Of a stretch of 37,356 bases of DNA, positions 7,372 to 34,985 are shown piece after piece. Position numbers and translations under genes: made by a program. The DNA is taken from the NCBI GenBank assembly GCA_002084705.1, contig NBLX01000010.1:1-37356 (forward strand), given 5' to 3'. Below the pieces are notes generated by a model. That model ran no database searches and was not told the origin of the DNA. It saw only the letters and a program-made list of their open reading frames with translations. Every line of letters starts with the position of its first letter. The stretch's first letter is position 1. The DNA is from Desulfobacteraceae bacterium 4572_35.1 (GTDB lineage: Bacteria > Desulfobacterota > Desulfuromonadia > Desulfuromonadales > Desulfuromonadaceae).

Positions 7372-10021
7372 CGTAAGACTCCACAAAAGCTTGCAACTGC
7401 TTAACTAAATCGTCAGCATTGGCAACAGCAGGCAGGGTGATATTGCCGATGTGGATGTGTACATTCTTCCCCGCGCTGCGAGCAGTCAGGCCCTTGGTTT
7501 GCGTCTGTTCCGCAGATTTTAATTGTTCAGGCTGTTTCGGTGGTGCTGGTTGTTGTAATGTCGGTGTATCGAGAGGGGCAGCTTGCCATTGTGCCTGAGC
7601 CAATAGGTTGGGTAACTCCGGTGCAACAAGAGGCTGTGCTTGCCATGCCGCACTAGCTGAGATATCAGGCAATACAGGTGAGGTTGGTGTAGCAGCCATC
7701 CATTCAGCTTGTGCCTGCAGATCAGCAACTTGCGGAGTAACCAGCGGCTGTGCCTGCCATGCCGCACTAGCTGCAATATCTGGCAATACAGGTGAGGTTG
7801 GCGTAGCAGCCATCCATTCGGCCTGTGCTTGCACATCAGCAACGGGTGGTGTTTCAATAGCTAACGCAGGTGACGCAGTGGCCAGCGTTATCCCAGCCAA
7901 AGAGGCGGCAACTGTTTTATGTAGGTTAGGCGCAGCGGATTGAATACCGACACCCATGGTCTCCATGATCCGTGCGCCAGAAAGGGTTAAGCTCGAAAGC
8001 GGGCCCTCTTTGGCATCGCTAAACGGTAGTAGATTGCGTACCAGATCAAAGCCACTACGGATCAGATCGGCAGGAGCACTTAACATCGACTTGATACCGT
8101 TAACCAGAGAGCCCAGAATCTTGCGACCAGCGTCAAACAGATTGATGCTAGAGAGAAAATTTTGAACCGCTGAAAACCCTTGAATCAGCCAACCGACAGG
8201 AGTTAGGTTCATAAAAGCCCAAGTGATGGCACCCACTACGGCATCCGCTTTCGAAGCGATCCAATCGACCACGAAACCGAAAACCTCACCAGCACCCCAC
8301 CAAATGGCCTGAATAAATAACCACGGATCGGCAATGGCGGTGATAAAACCTTTCCCCGCCTTAATCATAAAGCCAAGACCCCAGCCGATGGCATACATCA
8401 CCGCATCTACGGCAACGGTAACAAACTCAATATTACGGTAGAGCCAGACAAATCCTGCGACTAAGGCGGCAATGCCAGCAACCACGGCAATAATGGGCCA
8501 CGTCGCTGCTATTGTTGCTGCGGCAAACCCCCACGTAGCCGTAGCGGCAGAAATGATTGAAGGGATCAACGCCGAAGCCGTAGTGCGCACCCAACCCCAC
8601 ATGGCTGGGATAGCACCACGATTAATCTGTCCTGCCCACGCCCTGAATCCGCCTGCAGCAGCAATTGAAGCAGTTAAGGCTTGATATTGGCCGGCAATGA
8701 AACCCCAAGTAGCTGTGCCTGTGCTGATCAAAGCGGTTTTGAGCGGTAATAGGGATGCCGTGACAAACGGCATAGCAGCACTGACAGCCCAAACGGTCGC
8801 CGTCCAAGCGGTAAAGCCAATCACCGTTACAGCAATTATTCCCGACAGAACAATCAACGCTTTACCCAGTGGGTTATTAGCCAAAGCAACAAACCAACCG
8901 AAAACGACCGAAACGCCTTGAATTAACGGGGTTAAGATGGGTAGAAAATTCTTACCAATACTGATTTTTAAAGCTTCCCAGCCGCTACCCATGATGGTTA
9001 AGGCACCGTTGTAGTTGTCGAGCTGGCGAGCGGCAACCTCGGCCGCTGCACCGGTGGATGCATCAAGAACTGAAGAATATTGCCGCACCACATCAACTCC
9101 TGTCGCCATCAGCGCGGTAACACTGCCAACAGCTTCAGCCCCGAAAATAGATTGCAAGGCAGCGGCTTTATCTGCACTGCCCAGTTCTGCGGTAGCACCT
9201 TCAATCTGCTGCAAAATATCAAAGATTGGCAGCATGTTTCCGGCTGCATCCTTGGTGACAATACCCATATTGCCCAACATTTTTGATGCCGCACCGACTG
9301 GAGCTTGTAAGCGCTGGAACATGATCTTGATGCTTGTTCCGGCAACCGCCGCATTAATACCCTGATCACCAAGCTTGCCAGCCATGGCAGCGACATCGGC
9401 CAGCGATGCCCCTGCGGCTGCAGCAACTGGCGCGGCATTAGCCATGGTTGCCGATAATCCCGCAAGGGTCGTGTTGGATGAGGTAAAGGCGGCCGTCAAA
9501 ATGTCAGCAACCTGTCCAGTTTGATCCGCTTCTAAACGAAAAGCACTGAGGATATTGGAGGCGACATCGGCAGTCATACCAAGATCTTCCTGAGCGGCAG
9601 ATGCTAGACTGAGGATGCCCGGCAAGGCGGCAATATTCTCCTGAACATCGTAACCCGCCATGGCCAATGACTTTTCGGCACTGGCCACCTCCGAAGCACT
9701 CCAAGCGGTGCTGGCCCCCAGATCGAGAGCCGACCTCTCCAGTAAGGCCATATCAGCGACACTGGCCCGTGACACCGCCCCAACACCAGAAATAGAGGCC
9801 TGAAAATCAGCCGCTGTGCTGATTGCCGGGCTTAGCCCTGCCACCAGCAACCCAGCCCCAATCGCCAGAGGAGCCATCATCTTAGTCAGCTTACCCATGC
9901 GACTGCCTAGGGACTCAACCTTAGTGTCGGTAGAATCAAGACCACGGCCGATATTGCGTAGCGGGCCAGTAATATTGTCCACTAAACCCATCACTGCTTG
10001 TACTGAAAAAAGTCCGTCCAT
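7364..10021 (-). CDS. Tape measure protein (TP901 family)
   Basis: 885 aa; the ATG at 10021 has GGAGGATAAAGGGG upstream. Residues about 60-400 form the TP901 core (ISTAADFQASISGVGAVSRA, SEVASAEKSLAMAGYDV, TAAFTSSNTTLAGLSATMAN). The middle (about 360-560) has several hydrophobic segments, as expected for proteins that enter the host membrane. It sets tail length and occupies the tail lumen. The C-terminal 150 residues hold two nearly exact 38-residue repeats plus a third degenerate one. The last residues VHIHIGNITLPAVANADDL resemble the usual tape-measure C-terminus. Confidence 0.92.
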   Translation of the reverse strand: MDGLFSVQAVMGLVDNITGPLRNIGRGLDSTDTKVESLGSRMGKLTKMMAPLAIGAGLLVAGLSPAISTAADFQASISGVGAVSRASVADMALLERSALDLGASTAWSASEVASAEKSLAMAGYDVQENIAALPGILSLASAAQEDLGMTADVASNILSAFRLEADQTGQVADILTAAFTSSNTTLAGLSATMANAAPVAAAAGASLADVAAMAGKLGDQGINAAVAGTSIKIMFQRLQAPVGAASKMLGNMGIVTKDAAGNMLPIFDILQQIEGATAELGSADKAAALQSIFGAEAVGSVTALMATGVDVVRQYSSVLDASTGAAAEVAARQLDNYNGALTIMGSGWEALKISIGKNFLPILTPLIQGVSVVFGWFVALANNPLGKALIVLSGIIAVTVIGFTAWTATVWAVSAAMPFVTASLLPLKTALISTGTATWGFIAGQYQALTASIAAAGGFRAWAGQINRGAIPAMWGWVRTTASALIPSIISAATATWGFAAATIAATWPIIAVVAGIAALVAGFVWLYRNIEFVTVAVDAVMYAIGWGLGFMIKAGKGFITAIADPWLFIQAIWWGAGEVFGFVVDWIASKADAVVGAITWAFMNLTPVGWLIQGFSAVQNFLSSINLFDAGRKILGSLVNGIKSMLSAPADLIRSGFDLVRNLLPFSDAKEGPLSSLTLSGARIMETMGVGIQSAAPNLHKTVAASLAGITLATASPALAIETPPVADVQAQAEWMAATPTSPVLPDIAASAAWQAQPLVTPQVADLQAQAEWMAATPTSPVLPDISASAAWQAQPLVAPELPNLLAQAQWQAAPLDTPTLQQPAPPKQPEQLKSAEQTQTKGLTARSAGKNVHIHIGNITLPAVANADDLVKQLQAFVESYDG
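7616..7843 (-). repeat. Two tandem 114-bp repeats in the tape measure gene
   Basis: Copy 1 at 7730-7843 and copy 2 at 7616-7729, in frame, each encoding VADxQAQAEWMAATPTSPVL followed by PDIxASAAWQAQPLV. A third degenerate copy (LLAQAQWQAAPLDTPTL) follows to about 7550. Substitutions between copies are few, so the duplication is fairly recent or homogenised. Confidence 0.9.
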
Positions 10022-24990: not shown

Positions 24991-25865
24991 CACTGTCTCC
25001 GGCTTGTTAACTTACTTAAAATAGAGGCTGAATGGCTGATAAGGGCATTTAATGCGGTTGTTTTATCTGGGTTGTAACTAAATTGCTCTGTCCTTGGATG
25101 TGGATCTGTTGATTCAATGACTTGTTCATCACCTGAATAACCACGTGCATCGACTCTCCCATTCGAAATAGCAACATTCATCAATGCAATTGTTTCAGCA
25201 TCAGGCACAACACCATCTTCCCTTGGAGATGCAAGTGTTTGATTAAACTTTCTGATATGTTGCTCCTCCATTCGTTCTAAGACGTCTGCCTCAAGATCAC
25301 CGATATCATCTGAATTTGGTCTTGTGAAACTTATCTGTAAGTTGGTTAATGCGGGTATTTTCAGTATGCGGTCTATGACTTCTGTTGAAGACTCAATTTC
25401 AACATCAACTTTGCCATATTTTTTCACAATTTCTTCACATGAAAACAAACGATCAAAAAACTTTTTCCCGACAGCTGGTGAAAAAAGTCTTAAATCAAAG
25501 AATAAACGGTGACCATTTGGGTAGAAAACAAATTCGTACTCTTTTAAATTTGGCTTTTTCTCACCAGCAACCTGAGGGATTGGGTTGCCTTTTTTATCAA
25601 CGATTGGCTTTCTGTTGGCTGCATCAAACCAAGGCTGTCCTTTGTGTATCTCCATGAAACGATATATTCTTCCGTAAAATCCATTGGTTGGATCTTTCTC
25701 GTCAATTTGGTTTAAAGAATATATTGTTCCAGAATCTGAGCCATGAATTTTTACTATACGATTACTATCGTTTATTTCCTGCATCAAATCTGCATATTTT
25801 TTGTGTGTGTGTGGTTGAATTTTAAAATTCAAAATTCCTACTTTAAGTTTTCTGTCTCTTGCCAT
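24990..25865 (-). CDS. DUF4747-like protein, AT-rich cargo
   Basis: 291 aa, AGGAGG before the ATG. The N-terminus (LKVGILNFKIQPHTHKKYAD) and the segment NGFYGRIYRFMEIHKGQPWF fit the DUF4747 family as I remember it, with KEYEFVFYPNGHRLFFDLRL in the middle. No transmembrane segment. No enzymatic motif is evident. One stretch of its coding DNA (25381-25440) is only 30% G+C by count, far below neighbouring genes, so transfer is likely. It is probably the sensor or soluble partner of the membrane protein downstream. Confidence 0.75.
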   Translation of the reverse strand: MARDRKLKVGILNFKIQPHTHKKYADLMQEINDSNRIVKIHGSDSGTIYSLNQIDEKDPTNGFYGRIYRFMEIHKGQPWFDAANRKPIVDKKGNPIPQVAGEKKPNLKEYEFVFYPNGHRLFFDLRLFSPAVGKKFFDRLFSCEEIVKKYGKVDVEIESSTEVIDRILKIPALTNLQISFTRPNSDDIGDLEADVLERMEEQHIRKFNQTLASPREDGVVPDAETIALMNVAISNGRVDARGYSGDEQVIESTDPHPRTEQFSYNPDKTTALNALISHSASILSKLTSRRQ

Positions 25866-25879
25866 CTTTACCTCCTGAA

Positions 25880-25903
25880 GTTTACAAAAGCTTAATTGTA
25901 AAC
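25880..25903. promoter_or_regulatory. Inverted repeat in the leader of the cargo operon
   Basis: GTTTACAA-8 nt-TTGTAAAC lies 15 nt before the DUF4747 start, between the stop of the early HTH gene and the cargo Shine-Dalgarno. The form fits a dimeric-regulator operator or a small leader hairpin. Its own regulator is not identified. Confidence 0.55.
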
Positions 25904-25930
25904 CATCAAGGAGGGTTTTGTTAGCATTTT

Positions 25931-26245
25931 TTACCCAAACAAATCTATCTGACGCGGATCAACGGCATTCACCCGCTCCCACGTCTGGTTTCGATCTAGG
26001 TACGAAACCAGCTCGTCATACCGAACACGGCGCGACCGACTCAGCATATAGCTATCGAGGCAAGCTGGCACAATGAGTGTTTCAGTAAGTGGATCCATTT
26101 CGTATGCGGCAACTAACCGCCAAAACGTGCGATCAGAAATACCCATGATGCGCTGGACTTCACCGGGGCCGTAACTGGCCTTTGATGGGATGTTTGAAAC
26201 TTTAAGCATCCCTTTTAATTTTTGTTCTGCCAGTTTTGCGTTCAT
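25931..26245 (-). CDS. Small HTH DNA-binding protein, last gene of the early region
   Basis: 104 aa; AAGGAGG 6 nt before the ATG. GPGEVQRIMGISDRTFWRLV is a MerR/excisionase-type helix-turn-helix, and the C-terminal half carries LSRSRRVRYDELVSYLDRNQ. Its place at the end of the early region is where Mu encodes Mor, but it is not Mor-like in sequence. It could replace Mor as middle/late activator. Its mRNA leader holds a hammerhead ribozyme whose 3' end touches the Shine-Dalgarno. Confidence 0.8.
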   Translation of the reverse strand: MNAKLAEQKLKGMLKVSNIPSKASYGPGEVQRIMGISDRTFWRLVAAYEMDPLTETLIVPACLDSYMLSRSRRVRYDELVSYLDRNQTWERVNAVDPRQIDLFG

Positions 26246-26257
26246 TGTGCCTCCTTT

Positions 26258-26321
26258 GGCTGCTCATCAGTACTGGGCCACCACGCCCAGTAGACCGGCC
26301 CCCGTAGGGGCGCGGTTTCGC
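26258..26321 (-). ncRNA. Hammerhead ribozyme HHR-C, upstream of the small HTH gene
   Basis: On the minus strand, 5' to 3': stem II half GC, then GAAA (26319-26316); stem III ACCG...CGGU with inner GCCCC/GGGGC; GUC (26295-26293), cleavage expected after the C at 26293; stem I UACUGGG/CCCAGUA with 8-nt loop CGUGGUGG; CUGAUGA (26270-26264); stem II half GC. All core nucleotides of the hammerhead are present. The loop-I UGGU can pair with GCCA of the 3' tail. The tail runs into AAGGAGG of the HTH gene, so folding and translation are physically linked. Confidence 0.88.
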
Positions 26322-26329
26322 TTTAGGTT

Positions 26330-26356
26330 CTCGAGATCACAATTTGTGATCTCGAG
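26330..26356. repeat. Perfect palindrome with ACAATTTG-type centre (P1)
   Basis: CTCGAGATCACAA-T-TTGTGATCTCGAG, 13-bp arms around one base. It shares the core ACAATTTG with the palindromes at 26453 and 26488 while its arms differ and stay complementary. It lies just 5' of HHR-C on the minus strand. Confidence 0.9.
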
Positions 26357-26371
26357 ATTTAACTAAGTAGC

Positions 26372-26387
26372 GGGAAGATTACTTCCC
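26372..26387. repeat. Short hairpin GGGAAG-ATTA-CTTCCC
   Basis: 6-bp stem with 4-nt loop, followed by AATTTG. Part of the palindrome cluster in the 281-nt gap between the small HTH gene and the ORF6N gene. Confidence 0.75.
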
Positions 26388-26392
26388 AATTT

Positions 26393-26415
26393 GCGCCGAC
26401 GAAATTCGTCGGTGC
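26393..26415. repeat. Palindrome GCGCCGACGAA / TTCGTCGGTGC
   Basis: 11-bp arms with one mismatch (G.T in RNA) around one base. Member of the same cluster of five inverted repeats. Confidence 0.8.
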
Positions 26416-26452
26416 AACCTTTTCAGCTTCGGCTTTCAATCGGCGGGTTTTC

Positions 26453-26479
26453 GAACCGGTAACAATTTGGTACCGGTTC
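26453..26479. repeat. Palindrome with ACAATTTG centre (P4)
   Basis: GAACCGGTA-ACAATTTGG-TACCGGTTC, 9-bp arms. Same central word as the palindromes at 26330 and 26488, unrelated arms. Confidence 0.85.
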
Positions 26480-26487
26480 CTTATCTT

Positions 26488-26508
26488 GAGGTGACAATTT
26501 GTCACCTC
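26488..26508. repeat. Perfect palindrome with ACAATTTG-type centre (P5)
   Basis: GAGGTGACAA-T-TTGTCACCTC, 10-bp arms around one base, 19 nt after the end of the ORF6N gene on the minus strand. Confidence 0.9.
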
Positions 26509-26526
26509 GGTCTTATCTAGTTGATT

Positions 26527-27144
26527 TTAACTAAGTTTTTCAGCTTCGGCTTTAAACCAGTTTACAATTGTGCTGGATAAGCGTCCGAGGGTTTTGCCGA
26601 TGTCTGTATCGGTGGCCCCTTGTGCTCTGGCGTTTCTCATAAAGGCCTTTTCTTCCTCGGTGAACCTCTTGCGGGTTTTCCCCTTAAGAACATCAAGTTC
26701 AAGCTCTTGGAACTCAATAAGGCGGTCTTTTTTTATAACGCAGCTATCATTCGGCAGCTCCACCATATTGACTGGTGGGGTCAGAGTTAGGGCAACACCC
26801 TGCTTGACGGCAAAATAACAACGCACCAGGCCGCGCTGAATCTTCCAGGCGTGATCATCGGTGAAGGTTTTGGTCAGTACGAGGTAGCCGGTTTCGGTCA
26901 AAAGGGTTATATCGCCAGGCGCATGCTTTGATACCGCCTCCGGGAACTGCGTACGCAATACGTCCGCAGTTGCTGTAACGCAATCTTCTCCTTCAATAAA
27001 ACGTTCACGATGCTTATTGAAAGTTCTTCGTGCAGTCCCTTCCGGCCGCTCGTGCAGTTCATCGACCATTTTGAGGGTCAGCACCGGTTGATCTTCGTAG
27101 ATCATCGGTACGATTTCTTTTCCCATAATATTGATCAGTTCCAT
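26527..27144 (-). CDS. ORF6N-domain antirepressor-like protein with C-terminal HTH
   Basis: 205 aa, AGGAGG before the ATG. The N-terminal domain (IYEDQPVLTLKMVDELHERP, RRTFNKHRERFIEGEDC, TLLTETGYLVLTKTFTDDHA, WKIQRGLVRCYFAVKQG) is the ORF6N/KilA-N-associated DNA-binding module of phage antirepressors. The C-terminal 60 residues (FTEEEKAFMRNARAQGATDT, DIGKTLGRLSSTIVNWFKAE) are a resolvase-type HTH. It follows an Ash/Icd-like gene, the order of P1-type immI loci, suggesting control by a C4-like antisense RNA. The last codons (KAEAEKLS) are echoed in the non-coding gap downstream at 26417-26436. Confidence 0.87.
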   Translation of the reverse strand: MELINIMGKEIVPMIYEDQPVLTLKMVDELHERPEGTARRTFNKHRERFIEGEDCVTATADVLRTQFPEAVSKHAPGDITLLTETGYLVLTKTFTDDHAWKIQRGLVRCYFAVKQGVALTLTPPVNMVELPNDSCVIKKDRLIEFQELELDVLKGKTRKRFTEEEKAFMRNARAQGATDTDIGKTLGRLSSTIVNWFKAEAEKLS

Positions 27145-27161
27145 GGTTATGCCTCCTGTGG

Positions 27162-27677
27162 TTAGGCTGTACTGAGTTTTTCACATATAACTTCGGTTGT
27201 TGCGTTAAGCAACTGGCGAGTTTCCCACATAATGAGAGCGAGGCCGATTTGGCCATGCTCGCTAAGGCGAAACTCTTCATTGACGGCGATAGGCTGCGTG
27301 AGGGCATCGTGCAAAAATGCCAATTTGTGCGATACATCATCGAGAGAATCTTGAGGGCGGCTGTCATTGATCTGCGGGTGGGGACTACACATGATATGTG
27401 CTCCCATGCTGGGAATTAACCCTTTTTGCGCTACTAAACGCAAAAAGGGCGAGATAATCAGGTTAGTAGACCGCGCATAGGAAGCGGCGAGCCCGAAGGC
27501 TCCCTGACTACCTCGCCCAAACGGAGCGAAATAGACGGACAAAAAAACCACCAAAGCAAACACAGTGGTGGTTATTATCCACCTACGCAACGAGCTACTA
27601 AACCCGTATTGCTGGATTTTGCCAGCAACGGGGCAAGCATAGCCTTGTGCGATTTTATTTGTCAAGCTGGTTTTCAT
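27162..27677 (-). CDS. Ash/Icd-like protein, with possible second in-frame start
   Basis: 171 aa, overlapping the upstream stop (ATGA). The segment SVYFAPFGRGSQGAFGLAAS-YARSTNLI is the Ash-family signature of P4-like and other temperate phages, preceded by a hydrophobic stretch (WIITTTVFALVVFLSVYF). In P1, icd is translated ahead of ant and controlled by C4 RNA. From residue 96 a different-looking soluble segment starts (MCSPHPQINDSRPQDSLDDV); an ATG at 27392 with GGGAG upstream could make it as a 76-aa protein. The first half may be translated mainly as a coupling leader. Confidence 0.72.
   Translation of the reverse strand: MKTSLTNKIAQGYACPVAGKIQQYGFSSSLRRWIITTTVFALVVFLSVYFAPFGRGSQGAFGLAASYARSTNLIISPFLRLVAQKGLIPSMGAHIMCSPHPQINDSRPQDSLDDVSHKLAFLHDALTQPIAVNEEFRLSEHGQIGLALIMWETRQLLNATTEVICEKLSTA
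27420..27573 (-). ncRNA. Structured leader inside the ash-like gene (C4-like RNA candidate)
   Basis: Minus-strand order: an intrinsic terminator AACCACCA/TGGTGGTT with 12-nt loop followed by five Ts (27573-27541); a UUCG hairpin GAGCC-TTCG-GGCTC (27502-27489) that competes with GGCGAG/CTCGCC (27517-27512 with 27491-27486); and an 11-bp hairpin CCCTTTTTGCG/CGCAAAAAGGG (27449-27420). All lie within the ash-like reading frame. Such a mix of terminator and alternative stems is what C4-type antisense control of a downstream antirepressor needs. I could not align it to a C4 consensus, so the family is inference. Confidence 0.5.
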
Positions 27678-28441
27678 TTTTGTAATCCCTTAAAAAACGC
27701 TTTACCTTTAGCTCGATCATCATCAGACAACCCAGCCTCCACTTTTTTACGCTCTGGCCGTCTTGGCAATCGAGCAAACAAATCCTTTGGTTCAGGCCAC
27801 TTTTCAAAGTTGTTTAAAAGCTCTTTAAACCCCGCTTGAATACGACTTTGATCGACCTCTAAAATGGTGACCTTTTTCCCTATTAGGAAGTCTTCCCACA
27901 AGCCAGCGGTGACGATAACGGTATCCACTGCGGGTGCGCCTTGGCGACCTACGCCGATGAATGTGGCTAACCCTCGGCCAATCTCTTGCCGGAGCCAGTT
28001 ATCGCCAGCCCACTGGCCAAGCAAGTGGATGGCTTGGGCGCGTTTGCCTTTAGGAGCTTGCGGCTGATCCGTGGCAATGGCTACGGCCACAGTCGGCGTA
28101 ATTACCACTGTTTCGAGCACCCGCTTTAAGTAATTATGGTTCTTTAGTGGCCGATGATCGCCTTGTTGCTGTTTGGCTCGCATGGCCTCAACAGTTTCAT
28201 TGAGTGCGGTGGCCAAATGCTGCGGATCGGCGGGGATCGTCAGCACTTCGTTTACAAGCTTCAATGCTCGAGCGTTGGCTAAATCACGGCTTGAGGCTCG
28301 AAACAAGCCCAAGTAATGCACCAGCGGCTTAAACATTTGAGTGTTGCCAGCTAAGGCGACGAGCAGCTCGCGGCCAGCTTCATCTGCGGCGTAAGCCTCT
28401 AAGCTGTTTGAGCTGTGGCAAACGGGGCAACGGAGCTTCAT
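27674..28441 (-). CDS. Conserved Mu-like early protein with N-terminal CxxC motif
   Basis: 255 aa, its ATG overlapping the previous TGA. Begins MKLRCPVCHSSNSLEAY, half of a zinc ribbon, then a helical region (HYLGLFRASSRDLANARALK, LVNEVLTIPADPQHLATALN) and a basic C-terminal segment (ARLPRRPERKKVEAGLSDDD, RAKGKAFFKGL). Similar proteins accompany gemA in Mu-like phages. The function is not known; a nucleic-acid-binding early protein is likely. Confidence 0.8.
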   Translation of the reverse strand: MKLRCPVCHSSNSLEAYAADEAGRELLVALAGNTQMFKPLVHYLGLFRASSRDLANARALKLVNEVLTIPADPQHLATALNETVEAMRAKQQQGDHRPLKNHNYLKRVLETVVITPTVAVAIATDQPQAPKGKRAQAIHLLGQWAGDNWLRQEIGRGLATFIGVGRQGAPAVDTVIVTAGLWEDFLIGKKVTILEVDQSRIQAGFKELLNNFEKWPEPKDLFARLPRRPERKKVEAGLSDDDRAKGKAFFKGLQK

Positions 28442-28602
28442 TTAGAATCTCGCTTCATTGCACGATTGATCTCTTCGAGCTTAGATTCCAACCTGCTACC
28501 AGAAAGACGATCAATTAGCCCTTGCTCCCACATGAGCCTTATCAAGACATCTTTATCGTATTGTTTGCACAGTTCGTACTGAGGGAAATTCAGCAGTTTC
28601 AT
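28438..28602 (-). CDS. Small 54-aa early protein
   Basis: From an ATG at 28602 that overlaps the previous TGA (ATGA) to a TGA that overlaps the next ATG. Sequence MKLLNFPQYELCKQYDKDVL-IRLMWEQGLIDRLSGSRLES and so on, a helical protein. Double coupling at both ends makes translation very likely although it is short. No family recognised. Confidence 0.75.
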   Translation of the reverse strand: MKLLNFPQYELCKQYDKDVLIRLMWEQGLIDRLSGSRLESKLEEINRAMKRDSK

Positions 28603-28799
28603 TCAGTGCCTCGTTTGACTGTCAATTCAACTTCTAGTGGTGTCTCTTTTTGAAACATGTAGGCGAGAAAGAGTGCCATGGCAACTTCAAAGCAGTAGTG
28701 CCCTTCGAGGTTGAAATCTGCTCCTTTGAACATCACTGAATAAATTGAAAGAAACAGATAAAAGCAAAATGCAGCTATATAGTTTTTTGGTGTTTTCAT
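28599..28799 (-). CDS. Small two-TM early membrane protein
   Basis: 66 aa from the ATG at 28799, which overlaps the gemA stop at 28796. Two hydrophobic stretches (YIAAFCFYLFLSIYSVMF, residues 6-23, and CFEVAMALFLAYMF, residues 36-49). Expressed early, it could act on host membrane processes or exclusion. Function unknown. Confidence 0.72.
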   Translation of the reverse strand: MKTPKNYIAAFCFYLFLSIYSVMFKGADFNLEGHYCFEVAMALFLAYMFQKETPLEVELTVKRGTE

Positions 28800-29218
28800 C
28801 TCTCTATATCCCATCCCTCTTTTTTGCCCTGTTTGATAAGCGCAGTGATAATACCGCGTAGCTTCGTTGTATCTTTCAAAAAGGTGACGCTATCAACCTT
28901 GTACATCCGCTTGGCCAACGCATCGCCGTAGCTCCAAGGCTTATTGCCAACGGTGAGCAATGCTTCAATTTTTTTGATGTGTCGGGCGCGACTACCAGCT
29001 TGATCTGCATTCTTAGGCCGACGCTTTTGAGGCTTTGCCTTCCAGCCAAGGCTTTCAAAATGCTTGATGAGTTCAAGGCGCTCATGCCTGTTCAATTTTG
29101 CGCTTGAGTCGGTCTTCCCGTTACTGATCATGTCAATTGCAGCGCGGTAGGTGGAATCATCAAGTTGTAAATCTTTTTTAGCGATGTGGATTTTTGCCAA
29201 CAGTGGATCCATAGCCAT
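28796..29218 (-). CDS. gemA: GemA-like regulatory protein (Mu gp16, DUF1018)
   Basis: 140 aa, GAGG before the ATG. IHIAKKDLQLDDSTYRAAID, LIKHFESLGWKAKP and the C-terminal RGIITALIKQGKKEGWDI (with WSYGDALAKRMYKVDSVTFL before it) match gp16/GemA. In Mu, GemA affects host gene expression and DNA supercoiling. It is a reliable marker of the semi-essential early region. Confidence 0.92.
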   Translation of the reverse strand: MAMDPLLAKIHIAKKDLQLDDSTYRAAIDMISNGKTDSSAKLNRHERLELIKHFESLGWKAKPQKRRPKNADQAGSRARHIKKIEALLTVGNKPWSYGDALAKRMYKVDSVTFLKDTTKLRGIITALIKQGKKEGWDIER

Positions 29219-29222
29219 GGCG

Positions 29223-29423
29223 TTACCTCTTTGCTTTTATTGCGCTGACGGTTACGTCAACGATAGGGTGATGTTCAATTTCTTGGAATTGATGCAAGGG
29301 GATGATCACCTCGACACCAATGCGTAATATGGCAACTTGTTGTGCGACATCGATGTGCTTTAGCGACACCAACCCTTCGCAGTGTTGTGGCCATTCTGGT
29401 TGTTTATTCTTTTTCTTTGCCAT
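29223..29423 (-). CDS. Small early protein
   Basis: 66 aa from the ATG at 29423 (MAKKKNKQPEWPQHCEGLVS) with GGAAAAC upstream, overlapping the previous gene by 20 nt. A beta-rich small domain (SLKHIDVAQQVAILRIGVEV, IIPLHQFQEIEHHP). It lies 4 nt before gemA. No family recognised. Confidence 0.7.
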   Translation of the reverse strand: MAKKKNKQPEWPQHCEGLVSLKHIDVAQQVAILRIGVEVIIPLHQFQEIEHHPIVDVTVSAIKAKR

Positions 29424-29565
29424 GCTGTTTTCCTTTTTCACATTGGCAGTGCTGGCCATACCAAATTTGGCCAATAGCGCACAGCGCGGTATGCCCTGCG
29501 GTGATCAATGCTTCTGTTTCAATCCGCTCGGTTGCAAACAGATCGCCGCTGTATGGTTTGTTCAT
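29404..29565 (-). CDS. Small early protein with Cys-x-Cys
   Basis: 53 aa from the ATG at 29565, AGGTG upstream. Sequence MNKPYSGDLFATERIETEAL-ITAGHTALCAIGQIWYGQHC ending in a Lys-rich tail. Begins 14 nt after an intrinsic terminator, so its expression would depend on read-through or on a promoter created there. No family recognised. Confidence 0.62.
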   Translation of the reverse strand: MNKPYSGDLFATERIETEALITAGHTALCAIGQIWYGQHCQCEKGKQHGKEKE

Positions 29566-29578
29566 GGAGCACCTGTTT

Positions 29579-29623
29579 AAAAAAAAGCCCAGAGACGTGA
29601 AAGGAGGAGAAACGCCTCTGGGC
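29579..29623 (-). terminator. Rho-independent terminator just downstream of HHR-B
   Basis: On the minus strand GCCCAGAG(G), a 21-nt loop, CTCTGGGC and eight Ts. It lies within the early operon between a ribozyme (29650-29730) and the next small gene. The loop contains TCTCCTCCTTT, complementary to a strong Shine-Dalgarno. The long loop lowers efficiency, so partial attenuation is likely. Confidence 0.8.
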
Positions 29624-29649
29624 ATAACAACAATCTTGGTTTCAATCTT

Positions 29650-29730
29650 GGCTGCTCATCAGATCAGGATCGCCGCACCCTGATGACCGCGATCACCTTG
29701 CCAATGGCGGCAAAATGATCGCGGTTTCGC
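29650..29730 (-). ncRNA. Hammerhead ribozyme HHR-B, directly after a stop codon
   Basis: Minus strand 5' to 3': GC, GAAA (29728-29725), stem III ACCGCGAUCA/UGAUCGCGGU (10 bp, 29725-29716 with 29695-29686) capped by a smaller TTGCC/GGCAA hairpin, GUC (29687-29685), stem I AUCAGGG/UCCUGAU around loop UGCGGCGA, CUGAUGA (29662-29656), GC. It starts 3 nt after the TAA at 29733. Cleavage is expected between 29685 and 29684. Loop-I GGC can pair with the GCC in the tail. This copy has the longest stem III of the three. Confidence 0.9.
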
Positions 29731-29732
29731 AT

Positions 29733-29954
29733 TTATGAAATCATCACGGCTTCACTAAAGGAGAGCAGTAGTGACTCGCCCATTGGATCAATACATAGTG
29801 TGCTGTCGGGTAGGTGAGAAAGTGCATCGCGTAGCTTGCCTACAGTGTCAACATCGTCTATTTCAACAGCGGGTGGTTCACGATGGTGCTGTGCGGCAAA
29901 ATATGCCTCTTTTGATGGATAGCTTTTATCCCAAACTGTTACGCCCATTGCCAT
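29733..29954 (-). CDS. Small early protein
   Basis: 73 aa, AGGAGG before the ATG. MAMGVTVWDKSYPSKEAYFA followed by an acidic segment (VEIDDVDTVGKLRDALSHLP). The final residues (DPMGESLLLSFSEAVMIS) are hydrophobic. Unknown family. Its mRNA end would be formed by HHR-B. Confidence 0.72.
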   Translation of the reverse strand: MAMGVTVWDKSYPSKEAYFAAQHHREPPAVEIDDVDTVGKLRDALSHLPDSTLCIDPMGESLLLSFSEAVMIS

Positions 29955-29970
29955 TATTGCCTCCTGATTT

Positions 29971-30579
29971 TTAACCTAATGCAATCATTTGATAGCTGCC
30001 GTCTTCTTGCTGCTCATAAACCCGCACATAGGTCTTTGACCCTGTCACTTGCAAGCTTTCGCCTATGGCGGTCATGGCTCTTTTCCAGCGATCGTCAGCA
30101 ATTTCTAAGCGGCGCAAACTGAGAATACGCTTGGTGTCGACGCGGCCTTCCTTATCGACCTGAAAGGCATCGTTCACCAGCGCCATAATTTCAACAGCTG
30201 CTCCCTTGCTCCAACCGTGAATACATTCATCAATCAATGACTTGGCTACCTGTAGGCGTTCATCAAAAACAAGTTGGTCGTTAATGGCACGACATACCTT
30301 AAATTTTCCATCAAATGATGTGAGAGTGATGTTTCCTTTTGTACCGCCTAACTTGGCTCCAAATCGTTCAAAACTAAGTTCTGCAAAGGCTTCGATATCA
30401 CCCATCAATCCAAGTTTGAAATCATTGAGCAGGTTTGACATGCGCTTACTGTTAACAACGATCTCTCGCACAAGGCTGTCGCGGGTTCGATCAATCTCGC
30501 TAATGGTTTCGAGGGGGATAAGTCGTCCCACTCGGTCTTCCATGTAGCCTTCTGGTATTTGTTTTACTGTCGCTTCCAT
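29971..30579 (-). CDS. DUF3164 family protein (Mu-like early gene)
   Basis: 202 aa, AAGGAG before the ATG. YMEDRVGRLIPLETISEIDR near the start, SLVREIVVNSKRMSNLLNDF and NITLTSFDGKFKVCRAINDQ are the DUF3164 signature. The family is widespread in Mu-like phages downstream of MuB. Helical, with a possible coiled coil at 30-60. Its role is unknown; it may act with transposition or host takeover. Confidence 0.9.
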   Translation of the reverse strand: MEATVKQIPEGYMEDRVGRLIPLETISEIDRTRDSLVREIVVNSKRMSNLLNDFKLGLMGDIEAFAELSFERFGAKLGGTKGNITLTSFDGKFKVCRAINDQLVFDERLQVAKSLIDECIHGWSKGAAVEIMALVNDAFQVDKEGRVDTKRILSLRRLEIADDRWKRAMTAIGESLQVTGSKTYVRVYEQQEDGSYQMIALG

Positions 30580-30607
30580 TGGGTTTTAATCTCCTTTTAA
30601 AAGTTGT

Positions 30608-30802
30608 TTAAACAGGTACTAAACGGCCAATGCCGTTAGTGATATTGATTGCGTGAGTGCGTTGCACCACTTTTACAATTCGGCTTTCGTAGTACTTTGG
30701 CAAGGCAACGTATTGATCAAAGGTGATGCCAAAAATTCGCGCCATGTTTGAGTTCACAAAGCGTTTCCCTAATAGTTCAAGGGTGTCATCGTTGATTCTC
30801 AT
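30608..30802 (-). CDS. Small early protein
   Basis: 64 aa from the ATG at 30802, GGAGG upstream, overlapping the previous gene by 17 nt. MRINDDTLELLGKRFVNSNM followed by ARIFGITFDQYVALPKYYES: a phage-type short helical protein that ends in a beta segment. No family recognised. Confidence 0.7.
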   Translation of the reverse strand: MRINDDTLELLGKRFVNSNMARIFGITFDQYVALPKYYESRIVKVVQRTHAINITNGIGRLVPV

Positions 30803-31118
30803 GCACGCCTCCGTTCTGTGAGCAAGATTTACACGCCTTATACTGCTGGACCCTCTGAGAGTTGGTGGCAGCAAAGGGGCGACGTTTTGTGTCAACACAC
30901 TTACCTAGTGGTATGGTTCCCATTATTGGACACTCAACGCTGGTACGGCCAAATACCTCTTCAACTCGCTGTAACACTGCCGATGGATCGCCAGCGTAGC
31001 TATTGCTTACGATTTGGCTGATAGTGCTGGCACTGTAGCCGAGTGCTCGTGACACAACGGCTTGACTGCTCTCGGCAATGGCCTTGCGTAATAGTTTTAG
31101 GCGGTCATCGTTACTCAT
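30786..31118 (-). CDS. XRE-like HTH protein with C-terminal cysteine motif
   Basis: 110 aa from the ATG at 31118, with GGGGG upstream. SNDDRLKLLRKAIAESSQAV and VSRALGYSASTISQIVSNSY are a Cro-type helix-turn-helix. The second half has CPIMGTIPLGKC and YKACKSC, a four-cysteine set that may bind zinc. Similar regulators lie between MuB and DUF3164 in related phages. Probable early transcription regulator. Confidence 0.82.
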   Translation of the reverse strand: MSNDDRLKLLRKAIAESSQAVVSRALGYSASTISQIVSNSYAGDPSAVLQRVEEVFGRTSVECPIMGTIPLGKCVDTKRRPFAATNSQRVQQYKACKSCSQNGGVHENQR

Positions 31119-31704
31119 GGGTGCCCCCTTTTGCGCTCCAGACGACCTCATTAGTGTTGGGATCGAAAATCTGTTGAACACGCTGAATTTGTGGTGGTTT
31201 TGGGCCTGTGTGTCTCATGAGGCGATAAGCTCCAGCTGCGCCACCTTTGCCGCCTGACATTTTTAAATACTTAGCTTTTGTGAGTGCTTGGCAGTATTTC
31301 TTGGCAGTGTTTTCCTTGATTTGACAATCTTCAGTGCTTGCTTTGATGGCGAGCTCTGTGGCGGTGAAGGCTTTGAGAATGCGCATGGTGCGCCACAGAT
31401 TAATATTGCCTTGCCCTTGGGTTACGTGAGTGCCGTCGGTGCGTACTCTTGGAGCATCAATGCCTACATCCTTAATCAAGGTGTAAAGTGTCAACGGCCG
31501 ACCAGGAGCTTCACGCTTGCCCACCATCTTTAAATATCCAGCATTAGTTAACCCTGTCATGTAATCCCGAACCGACTCAGGCTTTAAGCTGGTGTGGACC
31601 CTAACGTCAGTAACGGTGAATTCAGTACGCAGTGCTCGTATCACTTTCCAAACGGCATTGCGGCTATCAATACCGTTGAGCTTATCTAGTGGTTTACGTG
31701 CCAT
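31111..31704 (-). CDS. Protein with two winged-helix-like repeats, coupled to MuB
   Basis: 197 aa; the ATG at 31704 overlaps the MuB stop (TAATG) with GGAGG upstream. Two similar halves: NAVWKVIRALRTEFTVTDVR ... MTGLTNAGYLKMVG and INLWRTMRILKAFTATELAI ... CQALTKAKYLKMSG. Each reads as a winged helix (helix, helix, recognition helix, GYLKM wing). It likely binds DNA as an internal dimer. The tandem design next to MuB suggests a regulator of transposition or early transcription. Family not named. Confidence 0.8.
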   Translation of the reverse strand: MARKPLDKLNGIDSRNAVWKVIRALRTEFTVTDVRVHTSLKPESVRDYMTGLTNAGYLKMVGKREAPGRPLTLYTLIKDVGIDAPRVRTDGTHVTQGQGNINLWRTMRILKAFTATELAIKASTEDCQIKENTAKKYCQALTKAKYLKMSGGKGGAAGAYRLMRHTGPKPPQIQRVQQIFDPNTNEVVWSAKGGTHE

Positions 31705-32438
31705 TACAGCCTCCGTGCTGGCGCGCTGCCAGTGTAGAGTGGACGTGTACCCCAATCTTCAAGGGTGATTTCGTCGTAGCCCATGTTGACGGCCTCGGTG
31801 CGAATTTGCTCGATGTTGACGCAAATACGGCGAACAGATCCATCAGATGCTTTGTAGACTTTTTCGAGCAAGTTGCTCTCGATTTCAATCTCTGGGCAGT
31901 AGAGTTTTGCTAGGGATAAGCAGTCTTTAAAGTCGGCTGGCTGTGCTGGAACCCAGTCGAGTATGCGACTATGGAAACGCTCCCAGCGTTCTAGTTTTTT
32001 TGGTAGCCGTTCTTCGCCGATGAGCAGTATGGCTGCGCCTGATCCTTCGTGTAGATCGCGGATAATCTCGACCACTTTCTTTTCAGCGAGATAGTCCATT
32101 TCATCGACAATGAGTGGACGCTCAGAGCAGGCAAGTTGCTCGCAGATTTGATCGGTCATCCCGTAGATTGTGCCTGTATCTGGCAAACCCATCTCTTTGA
32201 GTATGGCCTGCAGAACAGCTTTGCGGCTCCACGTGCTTTTGCACTCTATGTAGTAGGCTCCTGTTTTATTGGCGGTGTAGGCTGCAGCGGTACTCTTGCC
32301 GAACCCTGCGGGGCCGTACATGCAAACCATGCCGGGTAAGTGGGCTGGGCGTTTCATTGCGGCCTCGAGTGCGCTGTGGCACAGTGCCACGTTTGCAAGG
32401 GCTGCGACGGTGTTGCTTGATTGGGCATTAACTGTCAT
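31704..32438 (-). CDS. B: MuB-like transposition ATPase
   Basis: 244 aa from the ATG at 32438, AGGAGG upstream. AAA+ motifs: Walker A YGPAGFGKST (41-50), Walker B PLIVDEMDYL (108-117), sensor-like segment GAAILLIGEERLP. MuB forms ATP-dependent filaments on target DNA, delivers it to the MuA transpososome and gives target immunity. It is shorter than Mu B (312 aa) and lacks the N-terminal HTH extension, as in D3112- and Tn552-like relatives. Confidence 0.92.
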   Translation of the reverse strand: MTVNAQSSNTVAALANVALCHSALEAAMKRPAHLPGMVCMYGPAGFGKSTAAAYTANKTGAYYIECKSTWSRKAVLQAILKEMGLPDTGTIYGMTDQICEQLACSERPLIVDEMDYLAEKKVVEIIRDLHEGSGAAILLIGEERLPKKLERWERFHSRILDWVPAQPADFKDCLSLAKLYCPEIEIESNLLEKVYKASDGSVRRICVNIEQIRTEAVNMGYDEITLEDWGTRPLYTGSAPARRL

Positions 32439-32461
32439 ACTGTTTCCTCCTGTCATACAAA

Positions 32462-32508
32462 GGCTCATTCATTGAGCCGGTTTAAGCCACGTTACAGCGT
32501 GGCTTTTT
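32462..32508. terminator. Two adjacent hairpins between MuA and MuB genes; plus-strand terminator form
   Basis: GGCTCA-TTCAT-TGAGCC (32462-32478) and AAGCCACG-TTACAG-CGTGGCTT (32484-32505) followed on the plus strand by TTTTT. On the sense (minus) strand the T tract is only two bases. So the second hairpin is a good terminator for antisense transcription, or a stabilising hairpin at the end of the MuA message. Confidence 0.6.
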
Positions 32509-32510
32509 CT

Positions 32511-34598
32511 TTATTGGTTGATTGCCAAATCTGCTTCCATCTCTTTAAACGATTGCCAGATCGGTGTTCGCGGGAACGCTTTGTAAAACTTTTGCAGGTG
32601 AGTATCTATCTCGTGCCCTGCATGGTGTTGTGCATCGAGATCGCACCAGAGGCGGTACTTATCGCGGTTGTTGTGTGGGATCTCAATTTGTTCGGTTGTT
32701 TCCATCTCGGCTATGAGTTTCTCACGGGCTTCAACCACATCGGGCTGTGCGGTGATCGTAATAACTCCGTTGCGTTCTTCGTGTATCTCATCAAGCTTGT
32801 TCATCGCCCGTTTCTTGCGCCCCAAAAAGCGCAGTTCTCGGGCATATTCAACGGCAGACTCCTCAAACTTATCGGATTTGTTTTTTTCAAACGTTGCTCG
32901 GCAGATCAGCCTATCTTCCATGTCGCGCACCAAAACAAAACTTCCATCTTGAGGTTCGTATTCGATAAAAACCTGCTCACCGTGGTAAGGCTCAAGCTTA
33001 GAGCTGGAATAGGTGTTGCAAAAAAGGCGCACTTCGCATCGGTTGCATTTGACCTGCTGGCGTGGTCGAAAGAGGTCTGTCAGTTCTTTTGGCTCTACGG
33101 TTTCAGGCACCCAGCCTTGTGCTAGGTGCATGTTCCAGCATTCTTGCGGGGTCATGTGGCGTCTGTTTCCCCCAGCGTCGGTGATTTTTTCCAAACCGCT
33201 ATGTGGGGTGTTGTTGTAGCGCTCAACCGCCACCGCACAGAGGTCTAGAAACTGCGGCCAACTTGGGAGTAAATTACTGCTGCCGGGGTTCTTAATCTCC
33301 TTGAGGAGCAAGCGATCTGTCTTGTGGGCAATGCTGCCATCCATGTCCTTACCCATATAGGTTGGCAGTTGCTTGGCGGCGCGAATCCATAACGATTTTT
33401 GCATTCTTTCGACCATACCTCGGGCTTGGCTATTGCCGACAATGCCAGTTTTGTAAGTGATGCCAAGTCGGGCGTAGCGACCAAAGGCAGGGTGAGCATT
33501 CACTGCGGCCTTGTTACCGCTGCCTGGGTCGGTGTAAAAGATGGCTGGAATACCGCCGCAGGGCTTATCTTCGCTGGTACTGATAGCATGACGCAGAGCA
33601 TCTGCAACGGTTTCGGCAGATTCGGCTAAGCCGACAGACCAGCCAGTGACCATACGGGTTGCGCTGTCGATTACGGCACAGCATTCTGGTTTAAATGGGC
33701 GACCATGTACTGGGTGAGCCACTTTGGCTTTAAAGCTGTGGCCATCACATTCGACAACGTCAAGCGGCAGCAAATTTGAGGTATCGCGACGACGAAAGCC
33801 TTTGAGTGCTTTGATCTCTTTAGTGCTCATGCGGCCTTTGTGCTGATCGACATTGCTCATTTTTGCCAACAGCCTGTAGCACTGTGATTGGCTAGGCATT
33901 TTGATCTCTTTGGGGATGATCAGCTTCAGCTCATCTAATGCGTCTTGTACACTGGGTTTTTGTGGCTTTTGATAGCACTTTAAAAACCATGGAGCATAAG
34001 CGGGAACTTCACGCTTTCTGGTTTGTTTTGGGGCGAGCGCTGTGTTACCTAATGCGGCAAGTTCACGCCAGCGGTAGATAGTGCGGCGCGACAGCACGTT
34101 TTTACCTTTGCCGCCCGCGCTGCGAGCATTAGCGATAGGAACCAATGCTTGTATGTGTGGCGGTAATACGTCGTTCTCAGCTTGAGTGATAACTTGATCT
34201 ATTGCTTTATTTAGGCTGTGTGCTTGCGCTACAGAATCAATTAATTTCAAAATGACATAACGGGCGTTCATGGTGCTGCGCTGCCAGCCAGCTAAACGTG
34301 CTGAGTCTGGCAGATCGGCAATCTCTGCTGGTAAATTCGTATTAGTTGCTGCCGGTAGATTGCAGCTTGGTTCAGGTACTTCAGCGATAGCGGTATTGAG
34401 TAGGGAGTCTTGTGCTTGCGTTGGTAGGCTGCTGATATGGTATTCAAACGCTTTTGTGCCAACCTTTTTTCGGCTTTGCCACTCATCGCGTTTGGCCCGA
34501 CGCTTAACGCCACTTTCAGACGCTGGGGTTTTTGGCAGCTTCAGCTCTGCTAGATCCCCAGCTGTAAACCATTCTTTAATGTCTGTTTTAACACTCAT
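32511..34598 (-). CDS. A: MuA-like DDE transposase
   Basis: 695 aa, AGGATG before the ATG. N-terminal Mu HTH domain (EWFTAGDLAELKLPKTPASE ... YHISSLPTQAQ), then end-binding domains, and a DDE core with D285 (VVECDGH), D357 (FYTDPGSG) and E397 (GMVERMQ). The C-terminal beta-barrel and MuB-contacting tail follow. A CNRCEVRLFC triple cysteine near residue 525 is not a usual MuA feature. It catalyses replicative transposition and binds the three end sites at 37183-37342. Its start lies 16 nt from the 3' end of HHR-A. Confidence 0.95.
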   Translation of the reverse strand: MSVKTDIKEWFTAGDLAELKLPKTPASESGVKRRAKRDEWQSRKKVGTKAFEYHISSLPTQAQDSLLNTAIAEVPEPSCNLPAATNTNLPAEIADLPDSARLAGWQRSTMNARYVILKLIDSVAQAHSLNKAIDQVITQAENDVLPPHIQALVPIANARSAGGKGKNVLSRRTIYRWRELAALGNTALAPKQTRKREVPAYAPWFLKCYQKPQKPSVQDALDELKLIIPKEIKMPSQSQCYRLLAKMSNVDQHKGRMSTKEIKALKGFRRRDTSNLLPLDVVECDGHSFKAKVAHPVHGRPFKPECCAVIDSATRMVTGWSVGLAESAETVADALRHAISTSEDKPCGGIPAIFYTDPGSGNKAAVNAHPAFGRYARLGITYKTGIVGNSQARGMVERMQKSLWIRAAKQLPTYMGKDMDGSIAHKTDRLLLKEIKNPGSSNLLPSWPQFLDLCAVAVERYNNTPHSGLEKITDAGGNRRHMTPQECWNMHLAQGWVPETVEPKELTDLFRPRQQVKCNRCEVRLFCNTYSSSKLEPYHGEQVFIEYEPQDGSFVLVRDMEDRLICRATFEKNKSDKFEESAVEYARELRFLGRKKRAMNKLDEIHEERNGVITITAQPDVVEAREKLIAEMETTEQIEIPHNNRDKYRLWCDLDAQHHAGHEIDTHLQKFYKAFPRTPIWQSFKEMEADLAINQ

Positions 34599-34613
34599 AT
34601 CAACATCCTATTT

Positions 34614-34682
34614 GGCTACTCATCAGGCCAAAGCCGCCATGCTTTGACGACCGCCACCAGTGTGTACTGCTGTCGGTTTCGT
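34614..34682 (-). ncRNA. Hammerhead ribozyme HHR-A in the transposase leader
   Basis: Minus strand 5' to 3': AC, GAAA (34680-34677), stem III ACCG...CGGU with inner CAGU/ACUG hairpin, GUC (34651-34649), stem I GUCAAAG/CUUUGGC with loop CAUGGCGG, CUGAUGA (34626-34620), GU. Stem II is GU/AC here but GC/GC in the other two copies, a compensatory change. Loop-I UGGC can pair with GCCA in the tail. Cleavage between 34649 and 34648 would leave the transposase mRNA with a 50-nt 5'-OH leader starting at a hairpin. Confidence 0.88.
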
Positions 34683-34751
34683 TTTTAAAAACTTCCTCAC
34701 TTTGTGCTACTCTGTGAAGGCTCAGAACACATTTCACACAAAGGAGAAAAA

Positions 34752-34985
34752 CTATGAATGACGAACAAGAACTGCTCGAAAACATCTTGACCGCTGAGGA
34801 ACGATCTTCGCTCCTCCTTCTTCTACGGTAAGCCCTGGGTTGTTCGCATCAACGCGGTGGGTGTAAGCTAAAAGCGCTTCTGCCTCAGTGAGAACCCACC
34901 GCGCCTCACTGATCCTTACCCCATCAAGCAGCTTCACAATTTCATGCGCTGTCGAGTATGCTTCTTTTGCAGTCATTTCTTTCAT
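34752..34985 (-). CDS. Small early protein upstream of the transposase
   Basis: 77 aa, GAGGGGGGAG before the ATG, overlapping the previous TGA (ATGA). MKEMTAKEAYSTAHEIVKLL and ISEARWVLTEAEALLAYTHR are helical and well formed. The end (QRSRCFRAVLVRHS) is basic and may be the product of drift. A convergent short ORF with a good Shine-Dalgarno overlaps its 3' end on the other strand. No family recognised. Confidence 0.72.
   Translation of the reverse strand: MKEMTAKEAYSTAHEIVKLLDGVRISEARWVLTEAEALLAYTHRVDANNPGLTVEEGGAKIVPQRSRCFRAVLVRHS
34754..34831 (+). other. Antisense mini-ORF with strong ribosome site (25 aa)
   Basis: AAAGGAGAAAAACT precedes an ATG giving MNDEQELLENILTAEERSSL followed by LLLLR. 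Upstream on the plus strand TGCTACTCT fits an extended -10 and TGTGAA/TTCACA form an inverted repeat before the Shine-Dalgarno. It opposes the early operon and could be a tiny antisense gene or chance. Confidence 0.35.

Follow-up and report, generated by a model that had tools for sequence, protein, structure and literature searches.

Type II hammerhead ribozymes, their pseudoknot, and their clusters in prophages were described by Perreault et al. in 2011 (PMC3088659), who also proposed the processing of long phage transcripts into mRNAs of gene length and reported cleavage of a triple hammerhead array both in vitro and in E. coli. The accessible text of a 2017 review (PMC6155905) presented the roles of prokaryotic hammerheads as an open question, and that of a 2023 paper (PMC10085705) placed hammerhead and twister ribozymes near genes of Mu-like phages and called the biological reason unknown. 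Prophage clusters of hammerheads, the idea of polycistron cutting (2011), and the link to Mu-like phages are already in print, and why phages carry hammerheads has been an open question since at least 2011. Here, we describe three genuine type II hammerheads from a Mu-like phage, all within its early operon, located on contig NBLX01000010.1 of assembly GCA_002084705.1 (Desulfobacteraceae bacterium 4572_35.1). Most likely, they cleave the early polycistronic transcript between cistrons, a reading to which we assign a probability of about 0.6, and their geometry with respect to stop and start codons makes their purpose testable. The whole contig of 37,356 nucleotides (nt), also present as an IMG/VR record, is referred to below as the window.

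Three hammerheads at gene borders of a Mu-like early operon

The window was searched with cmscan against Rfam 15, in which the RF02276 family (Hammerhead_II) has a gathering score of 37 bits. Three matches exceeded this cut-off, all on the reverse strand: HHR1 (34610..34684; 46.4 bits, E = 1.4e-6), HHR2, which has a long stem III (29646..29732; 55.0 bits, E = 7.9e-9), and HHR3 (26254..26323; 70.4 bits, E = 7e-13). No other match to RF02276 was found in the 2.33 Mb assembly, and 14 control genomes had none (0/14). The three elements are genuine type II hammerheads and fresh members of a known family. The initial annotation, made by a model from the sequence, had already recognized three hammerheads with a full core and had placed them correctly to within about 4 nt.

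In all three copies, the parsed elements follow the order stem II, GAAA, stem III, GUC, stem I, CUGAUGA, stem II; CGAAA, GUC, and CUGAUGA are intact, stem II is open, and stems I and III are closed by loops. This order, obtained both with cmscan and by parsing, confirms the type II arrangement with an open stem II that had been proposed. The predicted cuts, immediately before the first base after GUC, fall at 34649/34648 in HHR1, 29685/29684 in HHR2, and 26293/26292 in HHR3, the same positions (34648, 29684, and 26292) as had been given from the sequence; HHR1 contains a second GUC three bases further on, but the parse favors the first. The stem lengths had to be revised in part. Stem I comprises 8 pairs with wobbles counted, where 7 bp had been stated, and the contiguous pairs of stem III number 4 in HHR1, 4 in HHR3, and 18 in HHR2, where a range of 4 to 10 bp had been stated; the open stem II has two pairs. 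The pairing between loop I and the 3' tail, also claimed at the outset, is present, and its sequences are now read as UGGC/GCCA in HHR1 and HHR3 from the parse and as GGC/GCC in HHR2 by eye, the parsing script having picked a different pairing in HHR2. When each ribozyme was folded alone, with pseudoknots excluded and z scores computed against shuffles, HHR2 (z −4.36) and HHR3 (z −2.63) had minimum-energy folds containing stems III and I.

Covariation was counted in 12 aligned hammerheads that we selected, over stem I, stem II, and the pseudoknot; stem III, which MAFFT does not align, was left out of the count. Paired cells amounted to 98.8%, a value that fell to 16.3 to 46.8% when the partner was shifted by 1 to 3 columns. 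Changes on both sides were found in 9 of the 14 pairs, a number reached in 4 of 500 shuffles, and there were 34 double-change cells versus a shuffled mean of 10.1, a total that no shuffle reached (0/500). In the pseudoknot, 97.9% of the cells were paired in the 12 sequences, with one double change; an Acinetobacter phage has one pseudoknot pair swapped on both sides (UCGU/GCGA). Stem I and the pseudoknot thus covary, in keeping with the earlier remark that the stems, including the loop-I/3'-tail pairing, differ in sequence and yet remain paired.

The phage is Mu-like in that a MuA-type transposase is followed by a MuB-type ATPase and that gemA lies in the early region (phrog_310, phrog_296, PF09299, PF06252). 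On the reverse strand, the early genes begin with helix-turn-helix (HTH) proteins, p77 (34752..34985), an ORF within the stretch that together with HHR1 separates HTH158 from transposase A, then HHR1 itself and, downstream of it, the MuA-like transposase A (32511..34598; phrog_310, 4.3e-150; Mu-transpos_C). They continue with transposition protein B, a MuB-like ATPase (31704..32438; phrog_296), regulators, a DUF3164 protein (29971..30579; PF11363), the small gene p73 (29733..29954), and HHR2. After HHR2 come small open reading frames (ORFs), of which the first, p52 (29404..29565; 53 codons), follows HHR2 and a hairpin, then a gemA homologue (28796..29218; PF06252), p255, a C4/antirepressor cassette, HHR3, and the small gene p104 (25931..26245), whose product is weakly HTH-like, below the Pfam cut-off. 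Both p73 and p52 have homologues in the relatives G008 and G007, the start codon of p52 being absent from the query used.

HHR1 lies 11 nt ahead of the start codon of transposase A. HHR2 is directly behind the p73 stop codon, the TAA abutting the ribozyme (offset 0), and is followed by a terminator-like hairpin and then by the 53-codon ORF. HHR3 is located 8 nt ahead of the p104 start codon, and its final bases run into AAGGAGG. The statement that each copy sits on the sense strand at a gene border of the early operon therefore holds: HHR1 precedes transposase A, HHR2 follows p73, and HHR3 precedes p104. The processing hypothesis of Perreault et al. likewise calls for several ribozymes that border genes and lie on the transcribed strand, as is the case here.

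Two further features of these ribozymes were noticed by eye. In stem III of HHR2 (29687-29729, reverse strand), a ATTTTGCC-like arm recurs in loci L077, L086, L088, and L089; this resemblance, to the distant phages G068, G187, G166, and G071, goes beyond what catalysis would be expected to need. Just upstream of HHR1, a 25-codon ORF with a sequence resembling a ribosome-binding site occupies 34754-34831 on the forward strand and overlaps p77.

A shared slot and a recurrent stop/start geometry

The three copies of the window are not equivalent, since HHR2 alone occupies a slot that is common to relatives. For a listing of 66 distinct hammerhead sequences, DUF3164 and gemA were located by tblastn, and one hammerhead copy was found between the two genes in 12 of the 12 hammerhead loci in which both could be placed: the window, L007, L008, L010, L042, L074, L079, L082, L084, L090, L097 (martha 12B12), and L098 (MT836460), among which L010/L042 and L007/L008 are look-alike pairs. 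Phage KS10 has a hammerhead in the same slot according to its annotation. Where gemA alone could be placed, the hammerhead was upstream of it in 11/11 loci, including DMS3 and D3112; in the loci with DUF3164 as the sole gene placed, the hammerhead was always downstream of it (9/9). HHR1, HHR3, and the other two copies of a locus with three hammerheads (G051) lie outside the slot.

Some neighbors of hammerheads in other phages are also of note. An unannotated 98-codon ORF starts right after the hammerhead of DMS3 (L091; 8950-9021), from position 9022, and the matching place in D3112 reads as 50 codons only. KS10, RcWaterboi, and vB_PeaS-P1 (L094-L096) carry an HU-like annotation for the gene that immediately precedes the hammerhead, and homologues of this HU-like gene are found near several other hammerheads.

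The position of hammerheads relative to stop and start codons was analyzed in 70 hammerheads, retained from 78 entries after removal of identical sequences. The set includes 35 later-added entries and L085 not established as Mu-like; RF02276 matches below the cut-off were left out, as were second matches above it in G226 and G336 and seven in G672, and 8 of the 70 hammerheads were not parsed into stems by the script. In 51 of the 70, an upstream ORF with a minimum length of 50 codons ended in a stop codon no more than 4 nt from the first base of the ribozyme, versus 431 of 13,903 random offsets (3%) and 3/70 on the opposite strand. A plausible start codon was present within 40 nt downstream of 55/70 hammerheads (within 20 nt for 53 of those), and both an abutting stop and a start within 40 nt were observed for 41 of the 70. 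In many cases, the ribozyme and a ribosome-binding site thus take up nearly the whole spacer between two genes. HHR2 matches this geometry on its upstream side, and HHR1 and HHR3 on the downstream side only. The tight stop/start geometry is kept even though the upstream gene differs, being p73 in the window and a 53-codon ORF in G008. What is new here is this stop-codon abutment, together with a spacer made of ribozyme and ribosome-binding site, in most of the 70 hammerheads.

The distribution of RF02276 was then considered more broadly. A megablast of positions 25800-34800 against 50,697 phage records gave no match, so no close sister is at hand for a fine comparison. Seventeen other viral records have a related MuA (the record of the window being excluded and some records being look-alikes), and 9 of these 17 had a single RF02276 match each. 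At least one match was found in 11 of 20 further records, consisting of 16 phages and four genomes. The 16 phage records were picked for diversity from 158 with a match, and nine of them were positive: DMS3, JBD30, D3112, RcWaterboi, KS10, YPCBV-1, vB_PeaS-P1, martha 12B12, and MT836460, with two copies in MT836460 and a single copy in the other eight. Two of the four genomes were positive; of their MuA loci, L042 corresponds to the viral locus L010 and L044 to L016. At the level of whole genomes, RF02276 was detected in 19/195 relatives, 30/277 members of the class, and 17/395 of the phylum, these sets overlapping. Multiple copies occur elsewhere as well, since three lie within 2.9 kb in G051, another Mu-like locus, and genome G672 has hammerhead triplets within 1 kb, the phage type of the latter not being established. 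The initial annotation had regarded three copies per phage as special; such clusters recur in G051 and G672, and prophage clusters already figure in PMC3088659, so the triple occurrence is not special.

A different class of ribozyme might substitute for the hammerhead in the slot. At Rfam cut-offs, nine hammerhead-less loci, in which L015 was omitted as a look-alike of L014, gave only sRNA-Xcc1 (in L006), and 19.9-kb stretches from seven hammerhead-less phages gave no match of another ribozyme class; no substitute was thus found at these cut-offs.

HHR1 and HHR3 have a different setting. Neither has a counterpart in the relative G008 (69% identity in MuA), where the slot copy was the only one found and where there is overlap both between HTH158 and transposase A and between p255 and p104. 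Relative to G008, the HTH158/transposase A and p255/p104 borders of the window each carry an insert that ends in a hammerhead (HHR1 and HHR3, respectively), and by this sequence comparison both copies have the appearance of additions, each at the downstream end of an insert. In seven of the eight relatives measured (two of which, L014 and L015, are look-alikes), HTH158 abuts or overlaps MuA, and the gap between p255 and p104 is at most 25 nt in two of five, both measurements relying on extrapolated ends. As a general rule, the notion that a hammerhead forms the closing border of accessory cassettes is ruled out by the conservation of neighbors and by hammerhead-less inserts: homologues were found for 26/51 upstream versus 35/66 downstream neighbors, the upstream ones being no less conserved, and L077, L080, L087, and L082 have inserts at these two borders that end without an RF02276 match.

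The insert that ends at HHR3 holds an antirepressor cassette with a C4 antisense RNA (27447..27518, reverse strand; RF01695, 53.1 bits) and an antirepressor gene with an ORF6N domain (26527..27144, reverse strand; phrog_4608, PF10543). An a1/b1 target-like match at 27587-27642 on the same strand scored 37.7 bits, below its cut-off of 46.7. A promoter-like site (27665-27636, reverse strand; 10/12 matches) was present in the cassette, although the promoter and terminator scan showed no overall excess over shuffles (8 versus a mean of 12.2, and 14 versus 14.2). Since the cassette has a promoter-like site of its own, the RNA that carries HHR3 need not come from the early promoter. A C4 RNA is also located near an antirepressor homologue in L089, and in L074 it has a hammerhead on either side. 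By eye, four near-perfect palindromes (26329-26357, 26391-26417, 26453-26479, and 26488-26508), three of them with a CAATTTG center, lie between the antirepressor gene and HHR3, and the 3' end of the antirepressor gene appears to be partly duplicated among them.

Probable intercistronic cutting and its alternatives

Self-cleavage of the window ribozymes is likely by homology, given that the published triple array cleaves according to the accessible part of PMC3088659. From the type II topology, the predicted cut is flanked by two hairpins, that of stem III on its upstream side and that of stem I on its downstream side. Cutting would leave the upstream mRNA with a terminal stem III hairpin and a 2',3'-cyclic phosphate, just past the stop codon where the two abut, and would give the downstream mRNA a 5'-OH followed by the stem I hairpin, shortly before its ribosome-binding site. 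A hairpin on both new ends is to be expected of type II only, as types I and III would leave one end single-stranded, and we propose that this could protect both pieces against exonucleases as well as against decay that depends on a 5'-monophosphate. At hammerheads whose catalytic GAAA strand directly follows a stop codon, the core should be covered by the ribosome during termination, so that cutting would wait for the departure of the last ribosome. We therefore favor intercistronic punctuation, which would protect the new ends of both mRNAs, may be gated by that ribosome, and may benefit the phage.

Several observations weigh against this interpretation. Compared with shuffles, HHR1 showed no advantage in folding (z −1.42), and stem I is missing from its minimum-energy fold, making it the weakest of the three. 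Neither HHR1 nor HHR3 has an abutting stop codon, the nearest ones for an ORF of at least 50 codons being 67 and 203 nt upstream, respectively, and abutment in general may, at least in part, come from the compaction of phage genomes. L009, L011, L021, and L045 have DUF3164 and gemA placed, without a hammerhead. Eight of the 17 MuA-related records and seven of the 16 chosen phages, including Escherichia virus Mu_3F6, have no RF02276 match, which indicates that the hammerhead is dispensable. Finally, many loci are related to one another, and the counts are thus not independent.

The patchy presence of the motif (9/17 and 9/16 records) would suit ribozymes that cleave themselves and serve no purpose in mRNA processing, as mobile or selfish motifs or remnants tolerated in gaps and copied along with neighboring genes. 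The same could be said of the absence of HHR1 and HHR3, both at insert ends, from G008 with its 69% identical MuA, and of the lack of a constant neighbor (homologues for 26/51 upstream and 35/66 downstream). Against this, the cores and the pseudoknot are retained with covarying stems, the same slot is used across distant phages, and the tight stop/start geometry survives a change of the upstream gene. We consider that such motifs are an unlikely explanation.

A second alternative starts from the terminator-like hairpin located 22 nt after HHR2 (29579..29623, reverse strand; −21.8 kcal/mol, z −6.49), which has a 12-pair stem, a loop holding CUCCUCCUUU, and a run of eight U. It was omitted by the promoter and terminator scan, its loop being larger than the limit of the scan, and an Rfam search with E up to 1 gave no family match. 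HHR2 and this CCUCC hairpin could form a single element, either one that through cutting and termination yields a small RNA (sRNA) of about 106 nt (29684-29579) with a hairpin at both ends and an anti-Shine-Dalgarno-like loop, or an attenuator limiting transcription into gemA and beyond. In support of this, a terminator-like hairpin with CCUCC and a U run follows the ribozyme at 2 to 33 nt in ten hammerhead loci (window HHR2, G051c, G007, G008, G024, G026, G028, G071, G108b, and G123), in which CCUCC is kept while the stems differ. Moreover, among 105 terminator-like hairpins in 46 loci, 13 bear CCUCC, ten of these being directly behind a hammerhead. Four of the CCUCC-hairpin phages also have, ahead of gemA, a hairpin whose GGAGGGGG loop is complementary to the CCUCC loop, and a fifth, G024, has an imperfect one. 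However, all ten loci belong to one bacterial order, that of the host, and the motif may therefore be due to shared ancestry; other hammerheads, including HHR1 and HHR3, have no CCUCC hairpin; GGAGG-loop hairpins overall were no more common than control motifs (13 versus 8 to 27); and gemA and the later early genes must still be transcribed. On balance, we find it quite improbable that HHR2 and the hairpin are one element. A more elaborate version, for this Mu-like lineage, would join stop codon, ribozyme, CCUCC terminator, and ribosome-binding site into a composite in which gated cutting and termination release the sRNA of about 106 nt with its anti-Shine-Dalgarno loop. The RNA, or the termination itself, would then set the flow into gemA and later genes, in some phages via the GGAGGGGG-loop hairpin; we regard this version as more doubtful still. 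The GGAGGGGG-loop hairpins lie at about 6940-6980 in L081, 7800-7840 in L089, 8440-8480 in L090, and 1640 in L076, and the imperfect one at about 7390 in L084.

RNA ends bearing a 5'-OH and a cyclic phosphate can be ligated. With three ribozymes in one operon on one strand, two hammerheads might bracket a gene block, with the excised RNA being circularized or serving as an RNA intermediate, as for eukaryotic retrozymes, but this is hardly credible given the single copy in each of the nine positive MuA-related records and in eight of the nine positive phages, and Perreault et al. (PMC3088659) reported a negative outcome when they searched for products that were circular or spliced.

Comparison with known systems

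DMS3, JBD30, and D3112, all Pseudomonas phages, each have one hammerhead copy, which in DMS3 and D3112 is just upstream of gemA. As these phages carry the hammerhead, the question of its purpose can be addressed in established laboratory phages. In the open-licence literature, as far as its text was accessible, no statement was found on the slot, on the abutment with the stop codon, or on the CCUCC hairpin or terminator; this applies to that literature and is not a claim of absence from print.

The P1/P7 immunity region is a C4 antisense RNA antirepressor module. The cassette of the window resembles C4 antisense RNA and IsrK-type antirepressor modules (RF01695) in having a C4 RNA ahead of an antirepressor gene, and differs from them in lying inside a Mu-like early operon and in being closed by a hammerhead. 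With the ribozymes reported near Mu-like phage genes in the accessible text of PMC10085705, the window shares the link to Mu-like phages.

With the RF02276 family, the window ribozymes share the core, the cleavage triplet, the two-pair open stem II, the loop-I/3'-tail pseudoknot, the prophage location, and the frequent occurrence of several copies together; nothing essential sets them apart, the 18-pair stem III of HHR2 being the feature that differs. The closest described arrangement is the ardA array of Agrobacterium tumefaciens, in which, as presented in the available parts of PMC3088659, three hammerheads likewise flank single genes. The genes are other ones, those of the window being transposase A, the gemA slot, and the antirepressor cassette, and whereas the A. 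tumefaciens array was tested and cleaves, the ribozymes of the window are known from their sequence.

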